Shown here: piece by piece, positions 4,292-55,626 of the stretch | Numbering within the stretch: the first letter of the stretch is position 1 | Layout of the letters: each line of letters starts with the position of its first letter | Assembly: GCF_900177325.1 (NCBI RefSeq) | Contig: NZ_FXBL01000004.1 | Coordinates: 3,410,001 to 3,474,000, forward strand | Direction: 5' to 3' | Source: Mesorhizobium australicum | GTDB taxonomy: Bacteria > Pseudomonadota > Alphaproteobacteria > Rhizobiales > Rhizobiaceae | Length of the DNA stretch: 64,000 bases | Translations under genes and position numbers: made by a program | The notes under the pieces: generated by a model | What the model was told of the DNA's origin: nothing | The model's input: the letters and a program-made list of their open reading frames with translations, nothing else | Databases searched by the model: none

Positions 4292-5800
4292 ATGGATCTC
4301 TTCTCCAACCTCGCGCTCGGCTTCGCCACCGCCTCCACCCTTTACAACATCGGCTTCTGCCTGATCGGCGTGCTTCTCGGCACCCTGATCGGCGTGCTGC
4401 CCGGCATCGGTGCCACGGCCACCATCGCCATGCTTCTGCCGATCACCTTCCAGATCGGCGACCCGGTCTCCTCGCTCATCATGCTCGCCGGCATCTACTA
4501 CGGCGCCCAGTACGGCGGCTCGACCACGGCGATCCTCATCAACATGCCGGGTGAATCCTCCTCCGCCGTCACGGCCATCGACGGCTACCAGATGGCGCGC
4601 AAGGGCCGCGCCGGCGTGGCGCTCGCCACGGCTGCCATCGGCTCCTTCGTCGCCGGCACGATCGCCACCGTGCTGATCGCCCTGTTCGCCCCGCCGCTCA
4701 CCACGATCGCGCTCAAGTTCGGCGCGGCCGAGTACTGCTCGCTGATGATCGTCGGCCTGATCATGTCCGTCGCGCTTGCCCACGGCTCGGTCGTCAAGGC
4801 GATCGCCATGGTGGTGCTCGGCCTGCTGCTGGGCCTGGTCGGCCAGGACGTCATCTCCGGCGCGCCGCGGCTCAACTTCGGCCTCACCCAGCTCGGCGAC
4901 CAGCTGAACTTCGTGGCCATCGCCGTCGGCCTGTTCGGCATCGCCGAGATCCTGCGCAACCTGGAAGACGAGCGCACCCGCGAGGTGCTGATGGCCAAGG
5001 TCACCGGCCTGATGCCGACGCGTGAGGATTTCCGCCGCATGGTGGCACCCATCCTGCGCGGCACGGCGCTCGGCTCCGCGCTCGGCATCCTGCCCGGCAA
5101 CGGCGCGGTGCTGGCGGCCTTCGCTTCCTACACGATCGAGAAGCGCGCCTCCGACCGCCCGGAGGAGTTCGGCAAGGGCGCGCTCGCCGGCGTCGCCGGA
5201 CCCGAATCGGCCAACAATGCCGGCGCGCAGACCTCCTTCATCCCGATGCTGACGCTGGGCATCCCCGCCAACCCGGTCATGGCGCTGATGATCGGCGCGA
5301 TGATCATCCAGGGCATCGTGCCCGGTCCGAACGTCGCCGCTGAAAGGCCCGAGCTGTTCTGGGGCCTGATAGCCTCGATGTGGATCGGCAACCTTCTGCT
5401 CGTCATCCTCAACCTGCCGCTCATCGGCCTGTGGGTGAAGCTGCTGAAAGTTCCCTATTTCGTGCTGTTCCCGACGATCATGGCCTTCTGCTCGATCGGC
5501 GTCTATTCGGTGAACTCCAACGTCTGGGACCTCTACGTCGTCGCCTTCTTCGGCCTGCTCGGCTATTTCCTGCTCAAGCTGCGCTGCGAGCCAGCGCCCC
5601 TCCTGCTCGGCTTCGTCCTTGGCCCGCTGCTTGAGGAGAACCTCCGCCGCGCCATGATTCTCTCGCGCGGCGACGTCTCCACCTTCGTCACCCGCCCGAT
5701 CAGTGCCGGCCTGCTTCTGCTCGCCGCCCTCGTCCTCGTTGTCGTCTTCCTGCCCTCCGTGCGCAAGAAGCGCGAAGAGGTCTTCGTCGAGGAAGAATGA
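4292..5800 (+). CDS. tctA: TctA large transporter subunit
   Basis: 502-residue polytopic membrane protein of the TctA family, the secondary-transport subunit that takes substrate from TctC. Family hallmarks: the N-terminal LLGTLIGVLPGIGATATIA segment, the YYGAQYGGSTTAILINMPGE segment, and a second related half (GILPGNGAVLAAFASY) reflecting internal duplication. The start at 4292 follows TAGGAGGCGCAAAG, a strong ribosome-binding site overlapping the tctB stop; the frame extends further upstream but without a convincing start. The C-terminus is short and acidic. The stop overlaps the next gene (ATGA at 5797). Confidence 0.94.
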   Translation: MDLFSNLALGFATASTLYNIGFCLIGVLLGTLIGVLPGIGATATIAMLLPITFQIGDPVSSLIMLAGIYYGAQYGGSTTAILINMPGESSSAVTAIDGYQMARKGRAGVALATAAIGSFVAGTIATVLIALFAPPLTTIALKFGAAEYCSLMIVGLIMSVALAHGSVVKAIAMVVLGLLLGLVGQDVISGAPRLNFGLTQLGDQLNFVAIAVGLFGIAEILRNLEDERTREVLMAKVTGLMPTREDFRRMVAPILRGTALGSALGILPGNGAVLAAFASYTIEKRASDRPEEFGKGALAGVAGPESANNAGAQTSFIPMLTLGIPANPVMALMIGAMIIQGIVPGPNVAAERPELFWGLIASMWIGNLLLVILNLPLIGLWVKLLKVPYFVLFPTIMAFCSIGVYSVNSNVWDLYVVAFFGLLGYFLLKLRCEPAPLLLGFVLGPLLEENLRRAMILSRGDVSTFVTRPISAGLLLLAALVLVVVFLPSVRKKREEVFVEEE

Positions 5801-6393
5801 GCGACACCCCGCCAGCCTGGCCGCCCTTCTATTTCTCAGGCGGCTGGTTCCGCATGGGCTCTGACGAACCGCAGTTCAAGCTGAAGGGCAAGTTCGAGTT
5901 CGAGTTCCTGAACTCCGACGAGGGCGACGACCCGGCCCTCGCCGCCGCCTTCTATGCCGCGGATTTCCCGACCCGCGTCGCCGGGGAACCCCGGTGGCTG
6001 GCGACCGGAGGCTGGGAGATCGTCCCCGGCGAAACCTCATCGAAGGGCAGGATCCACTCCGCGGCCTTCACCGCCCGCCGCGCCGACACCGAGGTGGCCG
6101 GCCGCGTCGTCTTCTCGCCCGATCCGTCGCACTGGGTGAAGGTCGAGGTCTTCCTCGGCGCCTTCCGCGTCCTCGTCGCTCACATGGACAAGGTCTGGGA
6201 GGAGTTCGAGCTCTGGCCGTCGGGCGCGACCGAGAAGACCATCGACCCGCCCGGCCGCATTGGAAAGCGGCTCGACTGGATCAACCTCGCGCCGTCCGCC
6301 TGGCCGGCGCTGGCCCGACTCGCCGGAGACCATACATTCTCCATTGAACTGCCCGGCCGCAACGTGGTCGAGATCTCTGCCCCAGGCGACTAG
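5797..6393 (+). CDS. Hypothetical protein downstream of tctA
   Basis: 198-residue protein not recognised. It overlaps the tctA stop codon by 4 bp (ATGA), so it is presumably co-transcribed and translationally coupled with the transporter. No signal peptide or membrane segment is apparent. It is rich in Trp, Phe, Pro and Gly with alternating hydrophobic patterns (FKLKGKFEFEFLNSDEG), suggesting a beta-rich soluble fold. The coupling suggests a role tied to the transported carboxylate or to transporter regulation, but nothing in the sequence names a reaction. Confidence 0.65.
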   Translation: MSDTPPAWPPFYFSGGWFRMGSDEPQFKLKGKFEFEFLNSDEGDDPALAAAFYAADFPTRVAGEPRWLATGGWEIVPGETSSKGRIHSAAFTARRADTEVAGRVVFSPDPSHWVKVEVFLGAFRVLVAHMDKVWEEFELWPSGATEKTIDPPGRIGKRLDWINLAPSAWPALARLAGDHTFSIELPGRNVVEISAPGD

Positions 6394-6448
6394 CCACGGT
6401 TTAAAGACGGATCGCGGAACACTTGCGGCGCCGGCGTGTTTCGTCCTC

Positions 6449-7225
6449 GTGCTCATCGCGACCTTCAACATTAACAACGTCAACCGCCGTCTGCCTAATC
6501 TACTTGCCTGGCTGGCGAAACGGCAGCCCGACGTAGTGGCGCTGCAGGAGCTGAAAGCGACGCAGGCGGACTTTCCAGCCAATGCGTTGCGGGACGCCGG
6601 CTACCGCGCGGTCTGGCGCGGGCAGAAGACGTGGAACGGCGTTGCCATGCTTGCCCGCGGCCGCGAGCCGGTGCTGACCCGCGATGCCCTGCCAGGCGAC
6701 TCATCCGACAGCCAGGCCCGCTACATCGAGGCGGCGTTCAACGGCGTTGTCGTCGCCTCGATTTACGCGCCCAACGGCAATCCCCAGCCCGGGCCGAAGT
6801 TCGACTACAAGCTCGCCTGGCTGGCGCGCCTGCACCGGCATGCCACCGCACTCCGCAAATCCGGCGCGCCGTTGGTGCTTGCCGGAGACTTCAACGTCGC
6901 GCCGACTGACATCGACATCTATCCGACGAGATCCTGGGACGACGACGCCCTGATCCAGCCCGAAAGCCGGGCCGCCTTCCGCAAGCTGCTGGGCCGTAGC
7001 TGGACCGACGCGGTGCGCACGATCCATCCGGGCGAGCGCATCTACTCCTTCTGGGACTATAAGCGGAACCGCTGGCCGCGCGACGCGGGCCTCCGGCTCG
7101 ACCACCTTCTGCTCAGCCCCAACCTGCGCGACCGCCTCCTCGATGCCAATGTGGACCGTAACACCCGCGGGGAAGACGGTGCGAGCGACCATGCGCCGGC
7201 ATGGATGAAGCTGCGCGATGAGTAA
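6449..7225 (+). CDS. xthA: Exodeoxyribonuclease III
   Basis: 258-residue ExoIII/AP endonuclease of the EEP superfamily, which cleaves DNA at abasic sites and degrades the 3' strand of duplex DNA. Motifs in order: ATFNINNV at the N-terminus, the metal-binding Glu in LQELK, WNGVAMLARG, AGDFNVAP (catalytic Asp/Asn), LRLDHLLL and the terminal SDHAPAW with the catalytic His. The GTG start at 6449 is chosen because family members begin directly with the first beta strand (MKIATWN-like); the open frame runs 189 bp further upstream but covers the previous gene. Length matches the family. Confidence 0.9.
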   Translation: MLIATFNINNVNRRLPNLLAWLAKRQPDVVALQELKATQADFPANALRDAGYRAVWRGQKTWNGVAMLARGREPVLTRDALPGDSSDSQARYIEAAFNGVVVASIYAPNGNPQPGPKFDYKLAWLARLHRHATALRKSGAPLVLAGDFNVAPTDIDIYPTRSWDDDALIQPESRAAFRKLLGRSWTDAVRTIHPGERIYSFWDYKRNRWPRDAGLRLDHLLLSPNLRDRLLDANVDRNTRGEDGASDHAPAWMKLRDE

Positions 7226-50833: not shown

Positions 50834-51118
50834 TTGACGACGACATTCGAAAAGGTCGCGGACCTGATCGCGGAAACGACCGAGATCGATCGCGACAAGA
50901 TCACGCCGGAAAGCCACACGATCGATGATCTCGGCATCGACAGCCTCGATTTTCTCGACACGGTCTTTGCGATCGACAAGGAATTCGGGATCAAGATTCC
51001 GCTCGAGAAGTGGACGCAGGATGTGAACGAAGGCCGCGTGTCGACGGAAGAATATTTCGTTCTCAAGAATCTGTGCGCGAAGATCGACGCCCTGGTTGCG
51101 GCCAAGAAGGCGGCCTGA
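50834..51118 (+). CDS. acpXL: Acyl carrier protein AcpXL (lipid A VLCFA)
   Basis: 94-residue acyl carrier protein specialised for the 27-hydroxyoctacosanoic acid (or related very-long-chain) group of rhizobial lipid A. Phosphopantetheine attaches to Ser37 in GIDSLDF; the flanks ([29 protein letters not shown]) are near-identical in rhizobial AcpXL. TTG start, preceded by AGAGGT five bases upstream; it aligns with the normal N-terminus. A rare start codon may limit its level. First gene of the VLCFA module. Confidence 0.95.
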
Positions 51119-51167
51119 CCTCACAAAGCTTGACGGTGCCGCATCCATTGCCGCACATGAGCGCACA

Positions 51168-52337
51168 ATGAGCGCTCGCGACGTCGTCATCACCGGCATT
51201 GGCCTGGTCTCCTGCCTCGGCGAAGGCGCCGAGGTGCACTGGAAGGCCTTCGAGACCCCTTCCCTGCCGCCGCCGATCGATTCGGAGCGATTCGCTCCCT
51301 ACACGGTGCACGCCCTCCCCGAAATCGACTGGACGCTGCAGATCCCCAAGAAGGGCGACCAGCGGCAGATGGAACTGTGGCAGAGGCTCGGCGTCTATGC
51401 GGCGGGACTGGCCCTCGACGATGCCGGGCTCAAGTCCAACGAGACACTTTGCACGACGATGGACATGATCGTGGCCGCCGGCAGCGGCGAACGCGACAAG
51501 GAAGTCGACGAGAACATCCTTGAGGCAACGCTAACGCGAAACGACGCCGAGGCGTTGATCAACGAGAAGCTGACCAACGATCTGAGGCCAACGCTCTTTC
51601 TCGCCCAGCTGTCGAACCTGCTCGCCGGCAACATCTCGATCGTCCACAAGATCACCGGTTCGTCCCGTACCTTCATGGGAGAGGAAGGCGCAGGCGTATC
51701 CGCCCTGCAGACCGCAGTTGCCCGGCTGGCATCGGGCCAGTCGACGCACACGCTCGTCGGCGGTGCGTTCCAGACGGAGCACCCCGACAAGCTCCTCGCT
51801 TACGAGTTGGGCGGATACCTCCACCGCGGCCCATGGCAGCCGCTGTGGGACCGGCATGCTGCGGGCGGCGGTGTGATTACGGGCTCCGGCGGAGCATTTC
51901 TGGTGCTGGAGACGCGCGAGCAGGCGCAGGCGCGCGGCGCGCGCATCTATGCGGTCGTCGACAAAGTCGCCTCGTCGCTTTCGTCCCGCGCCGACGGAAA
52001 GCTGGCGCGGGACATAGCGGCCCTTGTGGAGGCGCTTGGCGCAGAGCCCGGCCGCCTGATCATTTCGGGCGCTTCCGGTGCCCCGAGACCGACGCTTGCC
52101 GAGCAACAAGCGCTGGCGGCCCATGCCCTGCGCGGCTTCTCTGGCTTGACCGGTCATCTCAAGGAGGCCCAGCTTCCATTCGCCGTCGCGCTCGCGGCAC
52201 TGTCGCTCTCCAACGGCCGCGCCCCGGGAGCGATATCCGATACCGAAACATCGTATGACGGGACGCCGGACGTCGTGCTTGCCACGGCCATCGGCCATCA
52301 TCGCGGGGAAGGTGCTGCCCTCCTACGAAAGGCTTGA
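51168..52337 (+). CDS. fabF2XL: Degenerate beta-ketoacyl-ACP synthase FabF2XL (KS-beta/CLF-like)
   Basis: 389-residue thiolase-fold KAS protein. The N-terminal VVITGIGLVSCLGEG and the GSGGAFLVLE region are kept, but the active-site Cys (TACASG in the sister gene) is replaced: the aligned stretch reads TGSSRTFMG, with Thr168 at the Cys position. The NAHGTST His is also missing (SGASGAPRP instead); the second His, in LTGHLKEAQ, remains. It therefore cannot be a normal condensing enzyme and resembles the chain-length-factor (KS-beta) half of type II polyketide synthases. Probably a non-catalytic partner of FabF1XL that sets chain length. Located 49 bp after acpXL, where other rhizobia have fabZXL. 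Confidence 0.85.
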   Translation: MSARDVVITGIGLVSCLGEGAEVHWKAFETPSLPPPIDSERFAPYTVHALPEIDWTLQIPKKGDQRQMELWQRLGVYAAGLALDDAGLKSNETLCTTMDMIVAAGSGERDKEVDENILEATLTRNDAEALINEKLTNDLRPTLFLAQLSNLLAGNISIVHKITGSSRTFMGEEGAGVSALQTAVARLASGQSTHTLVGGAFQTEHPDKLLAYELGGYLHRGPWQPLWDRHAAGGGVITGSGGAFLVLETREQAQARGARIYAVVDKVASSLSSRADGKLARDIAALVEALGAEPGRLIISGASGAPRPTLAEQQALAAHALRGFSGLTGHLKEAQLPFAVALAALSLSNGRAPGAISDTETSYDGTPDVVLATAIGHHRGEGAALLRKA

Positions 52338-52345
52338 GGACCACA

Positions 52346-53614
52346 ATGAGCCGATACAAGGATCATCTCGGGCGCCCGCTCATCGCCGTCACCGGCATGG
52401 GTGTTGTCACGTCGCTTGGAGCCGGCAAGACGGAAAACTGGTTGAAGCTGACCGCCGGCGCGTCGGGCATCCATGCGATCACGCGGTTTCCGGTCGATCA
52501 TCTGAAGACCACGATCGCCGGCACGGTGGATTTCCTGCCCGGCAGCGACAAGGGCATGTATGCCCTCACCTACGAATTGGCGGCGAGCGCCGGCCAAGAG
52601 GCGATCTCCGAGGCGGGTATCGGCTCGGACTTCGGCGGCCCGCTGTTCCTGGCCTCGCCGCCCGTCGAGCTGGTGTGGGCCGACCGACTCGCCATGTACC
52701 GAAGCGTGAACGAGGGCAGCGGCTACCAGCGCCTGCTCGAAGCCGCGCGGGCCGGCAATGGCGCCTCAATCTTCGACGAGGCGCTGTTCGGCACCGTCGC
52801 CGACCGCCTCGCGGTCCTGTTCGGCACGCGCGGCCTCCCCATCACCACCTCGACGGCCTGCGCATCCGGCGCGACCGCGATCCAGCTCGGTGTCGAGGCG
52901 ATCCGGCGCGGCGAATGCGACCGGGCGCTGGCAATCGGCGCTGATGGCTCCGCGAGCGCGGAATCGATGGTGCGCTTCTCGCTTCTGTCGGCCTTGTCGA
53001 TGCAGAACGAGACACCGGAGCGCGCCTCCAAGCCTTTCTCGCGCGATCGCGACGGCTTCGTGCTCGCCGAGGGCGGCGCGGCCCTGGTGCTCGAGTCGCT
53101 GGAAAGCGCCGTCGCGCGCGGCGCCACCGTGTTGGGCATCATGCGTGGATGCGGCGAGAAGGCGGACGACTTCCACCGCACACGCTCGAAGCCCGACGGC
53201 TCGCCCGCCATCGCGGCGGTGAAGCTCGCCCTCGACGACGCCGGCGTTTCCGAGGACGAGATCGGCTACGTGAACGCGCACGGCACGTCGACACCGGAAA
53301 ACGACAAGATGGAGCATCTGTCACTGTCGACCGTGTTCGGGCCCAGGATCAGGTCTGTTCCGGTCTCGTCGAACAAGTCGATGATCGGCCACACCCTCTC
53401 CGCCGCCGGCGCGATCGAAGCGGTGTTCTCGCTCATGACCATGCGCGAAGGCGTGCTTCCGCCGACAATCAACTACGACCATCCCGATCCGGCGATCGAT
53501 CTCGACGTCGTGCCGAACGTCAAGCGCGAGGCCGATGTCTCGACGGTGCTGTCGAACTCGTTCGGTTTCGGTGGCCAGAACGCTTGCCTTGTCATGGCGC
53601 GCGAACCCGTCTAA
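52346..53614 (+). CDS. fabF1XL: Beta-ketoacyl-ACP synthase FabF1XL
   Basis: 422-residue KAS II-type condensing enzyme with a full Cys-His-His triad: Cys172 in STACASG, His312 in NAHGTST and His349 in NKSMIGH. It elongates AcpXL-bound chains. The ATG at 52346 has GAGG upstream; an in-frame TTG 12 bp earlier is less likely. It starts 8 bp after fabF2XL, so the two subunits are made together, as expected for a heterodimer. Confidence 0.93.
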   Translation: MSRYKDHLGRPLIAVTGMGVVTSLGAGKTENWLKLTAGASGIHAITRFPVDHLKTTIAGTVDFLPGSDKGMYALTYELAASAGQEAISEAGIGSDFGGPLFLASPPVELVWADRLAMYRSVNEGSGYQRLLEAARAGNGASIFDEALFGTVADRLAVLFGTRGLPITTSTACASGATAIQLGVEAIRRGECDRALAIGADGSASAESMVRFSLLSALSMQNETPERASKPFSRDRDGFVLAEGGAALVLESLESAVARGATVLGIMRGCGEKADDFHRTRSKPDGSPAIAAVKLALDDAGVSEDEIGYVNAHGTSTPENDKMEHLSLSTVFGPRIRSVPVSSNKSMIGHTLSAAGAIEAVFSLMTMREGVLPPTINYDHPDPAIDLDVVPNVKREADVSTVLSNSFGFGGQNACLVMAREPV

Positions 53615-53660: not shown

Positions 53661-54689
53661 ATGCGCGCATTGCAGCTCGTCGCCGACCGCCGCATCGAGG
53701 CCGTCGACATCGCCCCGCCCCCGCCGCCCGCCCCCGGCGAGGCGACCGTTGCGATCAAGGCCGTCGCGCTGAACCATATCGACGTCTGGGGCTGGCGCGG
53801 CATGGCCTTCGCCAAGCGCAAGATGCCGCTGGTGGTCGGTGCCGAAGCCTGCGGGGTTGTCGAGGCGATCGGCGAAGGCGTGACAGGCTTGGCGCCCGGT
53901 CAGCTCGTCGCGATCTACGGCGCGCGCACCTGTGGCCATTGCAAAGCCTGCCGCGAGAAGCGCGACAATCTCTGCGAGAACGTCGAGGGCGTGCACGGCT
54001 TCCACCTCGACGGCTTTGCGCAGGAGCGCATGAACATCGCCGCGCGCCAGCTGATTCCTGCTCCGGCGGAAGTAGACGTAACAGCTGCCGCCGTGACACC
54101 GATCACCTTCGGCACGGTCGAGCACATGCTGTTCGACAACGCGAAGTTGGAGGCCGGCGAGACCATACTCGTGCATGCCGGAGGCTCGGGCATCGGCACG
54201 GCCGCGATCCAGCTCGCCAAGCTTGCCGGCGCGACCGTGATCACGACGGTCGGCTCCGATGCCAAGATGGAAAAGGCCAGGGCGCTCGGCGCCGACCACG
54301 TCATCAACTACCGCGAGGACAGGTTCGAGGGCGTCGTGCGCAAGCTGACCGGAAAGAAGGGCGTCGACGTCGTCTTCGAACATGTCGGCGCCGACACCTG
54401 GGCCGGATCGATGCTGTCGATGAAGAAGGGCGGCCGGCTCGTCACGTGCGGCTCGACTTCAGGCGTCTCGACCACGATCAACCTGATGCAGCTCTTCCAG
54501 CAGCAATTGCGCATCATCGGATCGTTCGGCTGCCGGATCGAGAACATGGCGACCGTCATGGCGAAGCAAGCCACCGGCAAGGTGCATCCGGTCATCGATT
54601 CCGAGGTGGATTTCGATCATCTCGACGACGCGCTGGCGCGTATGGAGAGCCGCGACGTCTTCGGCAAGATCCTGCTGCGGAACGCCTGA
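53661..54689 (+). CDS. adh2XL: Zinc-binding MDR dehydrogenase of the VLCFA module
   Basis: 342-residue medium-chain dehydrogenase/reductase. Structural-zinc loop CGHCKACREKRDNLC; NAD(P)-binding HAGGSGIGTAAIQLAKLAGA. The catalytic-zinc position (usually GHE) reads GAEACG, so the catalytic metal site is partly altered, as in enoyl or quinone-type reductases. In rhizobia the equivalent gene (adh2XL) lies between fabF1XL and lpxXL; a reducing step of chain elongation (for example the enoyl reductase step) is plausible but unproven. Confidence 0.86.
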   Translation: MRALQLVADRRIEAVDIAPPPPPAPGEATVAIKAVALNHIDVWGWRGMAFAKRKMPLVVGAEACGVVEAIGEGVTGLAPGQLVAIYGARTCGHCKACREKRDNLCENVEGVHGFHLDGFAQERMNIAARQLIPAPAEVDVTAAAVTPITFGTVEHMLFDNAKLEAGETILVHAGGSGIGTAAIQLAKLAGATVITTVGSDAKMEKARALGADHVINYREDRFEGVVRKLTGKKGVDVVFEHVGADTWAGSMLSMKKGGRLVTCGSTSGVSTTINLMQLFQQQLRIIGSFGCRIENMATVMAKQATGKVHPVIDSEVDFDHLDDALARMESRDVFGKILLRNA

Positions 54690-54693
54690 GCCC

Positions 54694-55626
54694 ATGAAGC
54701 TCTCCGCCCTGCCCGGCCGCATCGCCCGCTCGCTTGCCTTTCGTACTCGCCGCGCCAACCACTGGTTGGTCGCCAAGATCGTATTCACGACATTCGCACT
54801 GCTACAGAAACTACCGGCCGACAGAGCGCTTAACGTGTCAGACCGCCTCGCGCGCCGCGTCGGGCCCTGGACCAGCCGCCACCGCATTGCGATGGACAAT
54901 CTTCGTCGGGCCTATCCGGAGAAGAGCGAGGCCGAATGCCGGGAAATCGCGCTCGACATGTGGGGCAACATGGCCCGGCTTGGGGTCGAATATGTCTTCC
55001 TCGACAAGCTCTACGACTTCGACGCGGAACAGCAGACGCCCGGCCGTGTCGAATTCAAGGGCGGCGAGGTTTTCACGGAGATGCGCAAGCGACGCAGACC
55101 GCGCATCTTCTTCACCGCACATACCGGGAACTTCGAGATGTTCCCGATCGCGGCCTCGTCGCTGGGCATGACGGTCGCGTCGCTCTTTCGCGCCCCCAAC
55201 AACCCGTTCATCGCCCAGGAGATCAGCCAGAGGCGCAAGATCTCCGGCAACCGCATGGTTCGTTCGAAGGCGGGCGCGGCGTATGTGCTTGCGCGCATTC
55301 TCCACAACAAGGGCAACGTCGGCGCGCTCGTCGATCAGAAGTTCAGCAAGGGCATCCCGACGACCTTCTTCGGCCGCAGCTGCGAGACGAGCCCGCTCGT
55401 GCCGCGGCTCGCACGGCAGTACGATGCCGAGATCTATCCAGTCCGCTGCATACGCCTGCCGGACAACCGCTACCGTCTCGAACTGTGCGACAAGATCGAG
55501 CCGCCGCGCGACGCCCGCGGGCAGATAGACGCCGACGCCTTATGCCAGATGATCAACGACATCGTCGAAGGCTGGGTGCGGGAATATCCGGGGCAGTGGA
55601 TGTGGTTCCACCGCCGGTGGGGCTGA
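54694..55626 (+). CDS. lpxXL: Lipid A VLCFA acyltransferase LpxXL
   Basis: 310-residue acyltransferase of the LpxL/HtrB family that adds the very-long-chain group from AcpXL to lipid A as a secondary acyl chain. Catalytic dyad HX4E: His143-Glu148 in HTGNFE. An N-terminal amphipathic/hydrophobic region (KIVFTTFALLQKLP) binds the inner membrane. Starts 4 bp after the dehydrogenase. End of the VLCFA module; the next gene converges. Confidence 0.93.
   Translation: MKLSALPGRIARSLAFRTRRANHWLVAKIVFTTFALLQKLPADRALNVSDRLARRVGPWTSRHRIAMDNLRRAYPEKSEAECREIALDMWGNMARLGVEYVFLDKLYDFDAEQQTPGRVEFKGGEVFTEMRKRRRPRIFFTAHTGNFEMFPIAASSLGMTVASLFRAPNNPFIAQEISQRRKISGNRMVRSKAGAAYVLARILHNKGNVGALVDQKFSKGIPTTFFGRSCETSPLVPRLARQYDAEIYPVRCIRLPDNRYRLELCDKIEPPRDARGQIDADALCQMINDIVEGWVREYPGQWMWFHRRWG

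Follow-up and report, generated by a model that had tools for sequence, protein, structure and literature searches.

Two adjacent genes of Mesorhizobium australicum, fabF2XL and fabF1XL, encode a pair of ketosynthase (KS) fold proteins of which only the second has kept its full set of catalytic residues. They are located in the window, the 64,000 nucleotide stretch from position 3,410,001 to 3,474,000 of contig NZ_FXBL01000004.1, and belong to the pathway that makes the very-long-chain fatty acid (VLCFA) of lipid A. The loss of catalytic residues in FabF2XL is real, family-wide in the relatives examined and strongly constrained. By analogy with polyketide synthases (PKS), FabF2XL is probably a non-catalytic partner subunit, and the best explanation of our data, which we consider quite likely, is that FabF1XL and FabF2XL form a heterodimer similar to that of a ketosynthase and its chain-length factor (KS/CLF). 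The C26-C30 chain of lipid A supports stress tolerance and symbiosis, and to our knowledge the enzyme-level route to this chain is not understood. No earlier report of a lost Cys in FabF2XL, or of a heterodimer, was found in the open-licence literature searched, which consisted mostly of titles, abstract openings and passages.

In brief, fabF2XL (51168..52337, plus strand) encodes a 389 aa ketosynthase-fold subunit without the catalytic Cys, and fabF1XL (52346..53614, plus strand) encodes a 422 aa intact elongating ketosynthase. The family calls were made with NCBIfam profiles; FabF2XL matched NF005084/PRK06519 with 562.2 bits (cut-off 320) and FabF1XL matched NF005076/PRK06501 with 722 bits (cut-off 629). 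The fabF2XL stop codon and the fabF1XL ATG are 8 bp apart. This distance and the coordinates of both genes are the same as in the original prediction, an earlier note on this DNA made from the sequence alone.

The ungapped phmmer alignment of FabF2XL with solved FabF chains places Glu173 (codon 51684..51686, plus strand) opposite the nucleophile Cys, with GEEGAG facing STACTTG of FabF. A MAFFT alignment of 123 unique FabF1XL/FabF2XL pairs and 13 ordinary FabF proteins agrees. The original prediction was thus right that FabF2XL has lost its catalytic Cys, but named Thr168 as the replacement; Thr168 lies five residues before Glu173, on the strand preceding the active site in the AlphaFold2 (AF2) model. 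It also stated that one of the two catalytic His was gone, which we found as well: Ser303 of FabF2XL is opposite His312 of FabF1XL, whereas His330 is retained opposite His349. In addition, the conserved Lys is lost, with Ser325 opposite Lys344 of FabF1XL. FabF1XL carries the full set of Cys172, His312, His349 and Lys344, the first three of which had been listed before.

A survey of 342 loci, some of which overlap the same place, yielded 331 fabF2XL open reading frames (ORFs) and, after removal of identical and short ones, 296 unique pairs. The proposal to check whether the Cys is absent across relatives has a clear outcome: no unique FabF2XL has a Cys at this position, and all 296 have an acidic residue there, 293 of them with Glu and the three Chelativorans rows (L150, L152 and L164) with Asp. 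In the first set, Glu was found in 123/123 FabF2XL proteins and Cys in 13/13 ordinary FabF proteins. The preceding residue 172 is Glu in 294/296, the variants being L329 and L341. We looked for compensating changes in FabF1XL that go with the Asp rows or with the residue 172 variants, and found lineage-specific changes without a clear pattern. The first His is absent from all 296 FabF2XL proteins, its position being occupied by Ser, Thr, Cys, Asn, Val, Ala or Pro, and the conserved Lys is absent from 123/123 proteins of the first set. The second His (H330) is retained in 260/296. The Cys, both His and the Lys of FabF1XL are all retained in 296/296.

These counts bear on two other explanations of the pair. 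One is that FabF1XL and FabF2XL are independent homodimeric enzymes of the beta-ketoacyl-acyl carrier protein (ACP) synthase II (KAS II) type that serve different elongation steps. This would fit their naming as 3-oxoacyl-ACP or beta-ketoacyl-ACP synthases in databases and papers, but a protein without the nucleophile in any of the 296 unique sequences examined cannot be a Cys-type condensing enzyme, and we consider this explanation highly improbable. The other is that FabF2XL acts apart from FabF1XL as a homodimeric decarboxylase of malonyl-AcpXL, similar to KSQ or to a Cys-to-Gln ketosynthase, that supplies the primer or drives condensation. In KSQ the Cys is replaced by Gln and the His residues are kept. 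The Glu of FabF2XL resembles this Gln, and an active-site His is still present in most FabF2XL proteins. However, the residue is Glu or Asp and not Gln, the His of the HGT type is missing throughout the family, and this His and the lost Lys are, as we understand it, both required for decarboxylation. The VLCFA pathway moreover begins from long acyl chains and not from acetate. We therefore regard a decarboxylase as very unlikely.

The two genes also occur together. The gene next downstream of fabF2XL is fabF1XL for 324 of the 331 ORFs, and seven others are without such a FabF1XL ORF. A contig end cuts FabF1XL in three of them (L185, L197 and L272), FabF2XL itself is cut in L014, and FabF1XL is frameshifted in L201. 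In L087 and L301 no fabF1XL is present in the locus stretch, and FabF1XL is encoded on other contigs of their genomes. The frameshift in L201, from Phyllobacterium sp. 628 (about 5197-6469), splits fabF1XL behind an intact fabF2XL and may be a sequencing error. L301 (G956:C7) and L348 (G956:C57) carry fabF2XL and fabF1XL on separate contigs of one genome, and are possibly a naturally separated pair.

Using cut-offs of E<=1e-90 for FabF1XL and E<=1e-30 for FabF2XL, FabF2XL was found in 112 of 397 genomes of the order and FabF1XL in exactly the same 112, with no genome encoding only one of the two. This co-occurrence is in part due to operon linkage. At E below 1e-60, FabF2XL is present in 234 of 248 genomes of one family and in 24 of 28 of another. 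Among 385 genomes drawn from the class it was detected in 18, the next matches appearing only at 1e-14; two small orders in the class have it in 10/11 and 5/7 genomes. At the level of the phylum it was found in 35 of 398 genomes, all 35 from the same class. In eight genomes of the order, both fabF2XL and fabF1XL are matched twice (G395, G428, G441, G477, G536, G669, G683 and G697). The second FabF2XL match is partial in G441, G477 and G536, as is the second FabF1XL in G536. In G508, a genome of 88% completeness, two FabF1XL are accompanied by a single FabF2XL. Loci L073, L078 and L080 harbor two full fabF2XL/fabF1XL pairs apiece.

The conservation pattern differs between the two proteins. Counting a column as conserved when one residue is found in at least 98.5% of rows, FabF2XL has 50 conserved columns, of which 26 fall in residues 107-173. 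FabF1XL has 96, with eight in 106-172 and the others dispersed, many of them at catalytic motifs; its residues 112-146 are largely variable. We take residues 107-173 of FabF2XL to be the ketosynthase cap helices and the strand at the two-fold interface, the part with which a ketosynthase partner lines the acyl pocket. In a FabF1XL homodimer the wall of the pocket would hence be variable, whereas in the heterodimer it would be constant. A segment that is constant in the dead subunit and variable in the live one is what would be expected of a heterodimer with a single channel, although this is an argument and not a proof. Passages of published work describe comparable arrangements: both proteins line the cavity in ApeO-ApeC (PMC8358021), and the pocket of the actinorhodin KS/CLF reaches the interface (PMC12664062). 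A near-invariant HRTR motif (His277-Arg278-Thr279-Arg280, each in at least 98.5% of rows) was also observed in the C-terminal half of FabF1XL, where it may belong to a gating loop or take part in AcpXL docking.

Based on these observations, we suggest the following mechanism. FabF1XL would carry out all of the chemistry, that is acyl transfer to Cys172 followed by decarboxylative condensation with malonyl-AcpXL. FabF2XL, a dead ketosynthase fold, would substitute for the second protomer, and its residues 107-173 would form the partner-side wall of the FabF1XL acyl channel and may also be part of the docking face for AcpXL. Its former active site appears to be filled by conserved charged residues, including Glu172-Glu173. 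The near-invariant charged residues in or near this site are E108, R109, D110, D114, E172, E173, R274, E312 and E381. Such residues could instead mean that FabF2XL has a chemistry of its own through Glu172 or Glu173. Charged networks can also be structural in origin, and a Glu nucleophile is not known to us from any enzyme of this fold, which leaves this explanation with a very small probability.

The AF2 monomer models are of high confidence, with pLDDT (predicted local distance difference test) values of 94.6 for FabF2XL and 93.5 for FabF1XL. A fold search with the FabF2XL model gave Z scores of 45.5 for FabF chains, 44.4 for Iga11 and 43.6 for the actinorhodin CLF. Since these scores are nearly equal, the fold cannot tell the FabF, Iga11 and CLF families apart. 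Arg210 of FabF1XL and Asp114 of FabF2XL are both present in 296/296 proteins. By hand alignment, Arg210 is presumably at the position of Glu200 in Escherichia coli FabB, a residue that contacts Gln113 in the partner subunit. Asp114 is presumably near the position of this Gln. The column of FabF Ile108 holds Glu108 in FabF2XL and presumably, again by hand alignment, Asp113 in Iga11, a residue named in a passage of PMC8358021.

Covariation gives no support to a direct FabF1XL-FabF2XL contact. Mean-field direct coupling analysis of the 296 pairs, tested in blocks against the regions expected at a ketosynthase interface, gave no enrichment of inter-protein couplings at the interface (17 vs 14.8, p 0.32; low power, effective number of sequences 108). 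This result would be compatible with FabF2XL being a non-catalytic scaffold that binds AcpXL and replaces no protomer, for instance a homodimer that delivers AcpXL, FabZ or LpxXL to homodimeric FabF1XL. Passages of PMC8358021 report that the ACP touches the CLF in Iga11-Iga12, as such a scaffold would also do. The conservation of FabF2XL peaks, however, in residues 107-173, which include the strand as well as the former active site, and we consider a scaffold of this kind unlikely.

Returning to the heterodimer, a role of FabF2XL in setting chain length is our proposal. We speculate that a heterodimer of a ketosynthase and a length factor builds an outer membrane lipid of alphaproteobacteria, that the acidic residue and the charged network keep the dead subunit locked, and that the constant cap sets the depth of the channel and hence the C26-C30 length. 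This fuller account is tentative, and we give it somewhat less than an even chance. Passages of PMC11901934 report that insertion in fabF2XL of Agrobacterium fabrum C58 results in lipid A without VLCFA, that plasmid-borne fabF2XL restores it partly, and that the VLCFA of A. fabrum is mostly C28 with minor C30. The occurrence of both lengths indicates that chain length is not rigidly fixed. In Bradyrhizobium ORS278, according to a passage of PMC5613085, no mutants of acpXL, fabZXL, fabF1XL or fabF2XL could be obtained. In the parts of these two papers that concern it, fabF2XL is handled as a synthase or elongation protein, and databases likewise present its product as another active synthase. 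Should FabF2XL prove to be a non-catalytic partner, both proteins would be required together for reconstitution in vitro, the mutants would need rereading, and chain length would become testable by exchange of a single subunit.

The genes surrounding the pair are lipid A genes, in the order acpXL-fabF2XL-fabF1XL-dehydrogenase-acyltransferase, and no polyketide gene cluster is present in this context. All are encoded on the plus strand. The acpXL gene (50834..51118; TTG start inferred) encodes the acyl carrier protein of the VLCFA pathway and matched NF005079 with 178.5 bits against a cut-off of 83. Downstream of fabF1XL are a zinc-binding dehydrogenase of the adh2XL type in the VLCFA cluster (53661..54689) and the lipid A acyltransferase lpxXL (54694..55626). 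Both were named by position: Sinorhizobium meliloti has the corresponding dehydrogenase annotation and a lipid A lauroyl acyltransferase at the same places. Among the surveyed loci, lpxXL is full length in 79 and adh in 106. The order in S. meliloti is acyl carrier protein, dehydratase, fabF2XL, fabF1XL, dehydrogenase and acyltransferase, and its FabF2XL also has the GEE motif. The closest named relatives of the FabF2XL studied here are proteins of Mesorhizobium, Aminobacter and Aquamicrobium.

The gap between acpXL and fabF2XL (51119-51167) does not contain fabZXL. A table footnote in PMC7663294 lists M. loti as being without fabZXL, with the housekeeping FabZ serving instead. In the loci of Mesorhizobium, Aminobacter and Phyllobacterium, acpXL and fabF2XL are less than about 170 bp apart; about half of all loci have a spacing of about 280-780 bp. 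These distances are rough, being taken to the open frame and not to the start codon.

Phylogenetic trees separated FabF1XL from FabF2XL, each forming a clade supported at 100/100, in both a 67-row and a 45-row tree. In the 67-row tree, FabF2XL and six CLF rows are on one side of a branch with support 99/98, where the program warns that long branches meet. In the 45-row tree, from which the Iga12-like dead subunit (L371) and the aryl polyene rows were left out and in which nine of 18 rows were kept for FabF1XL and FabF2XL each, support for FabF2XL with the CLFs is 76/62. The short aryl polyene CLF is in none of the trees. When the catalytic-site columns were also dropped, this grouping was gone from the free quick tree, and imposing it was not rejected by the approximately unbiased (AU) test (p-AU 0.646). 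A clade of FabF1XL and FabF2XL was likewise not rejected (p-AU 0.388 for the 45-row set and 0.44 with the catalytic-site columns dropped). FabF2XL possibly has a common origin with the CLFs, or else became similar to them by convergence.

Compared with ordinary FabF (KAS II), which works as a homodimer using both of its active sites, the pair shares the fold and has its best sequence and structure matches there; FabF1XL retains the whole catalytic set and FabF2XL does not. The name of PRK06519/NF005084, beta-ketoacyl-ACP synthase, implies an activity that its members cannot carry out through the usual mechanism. With the KS/CLF of type II PKS the 296 unique pairs share adjacent ketosynthase-fold genes, one intact and one without the nucleophile. 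The original prediction compared the pair to KS-alpha/KS-beta, and this likeness holds for the dead subunit, the intact partner, their adjacency and their co-occurrence; it does not extend to the Gln of aromatic CLFs. Aromatic CLFs, such as that of actinorhodin (1TQY), have Gln at the Cys position, as found in 5/5 Streptomyces CLFs, whereas FabF2XL has Glu. These five CLFs read [DE]QAGG at the site where FabF2XL of the window has EEGAG, so that an acidic residue before the Cys position is common to both. In these CLFs the Lys is still present and the second His is replaced by Arg; FabF2XL has lost the Lys and mostly kept this His. Their genes are ordered active-then-dead, as opposed to dead-then-active for fabF2XL/fabF1XL.

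In the alignments made with MAFFT, the Iga12-like dead subunit has His opposite the Cys, and Arg stands there in the short aryl polyene CLF of E. coli, although the latter alignment is uncertain. Together with the Gln and Glu above, this means that dead partners differ in the residue at the Cys place. At E<=0.001, Pfam matches FabF2XL with the N-terminal ketosynthase domain alone, which recalls ApeC, an aryl polyene CLF that has mostly kept the first thiolase domain according to passages of PMC8358021. The same passages describe the ishigamide pair Iga11/Iga12 (6KXD) and ApeO/ApeC as systems in which a reductase and a dehydratase modify the intermediates, as each round of VLCFA synthesis requires. 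The dead subunit of these highly reducing type II PKS has diverged, and ApeC is without most of its second half, whereas FabF2XL is full length. Iga11/Iga12 and ApeO/ApeC differ from FabF1XL/FabF2XL in product and operon, and the location of the pair in a lipid A operon is also unlike that of the aromatic PKS KS/CLF. If FabF1XL and FabF2XL are indeed such a pair, heterodimers of the KS/CLF type would reach beyond secondary metabolites and into envelope lipids.
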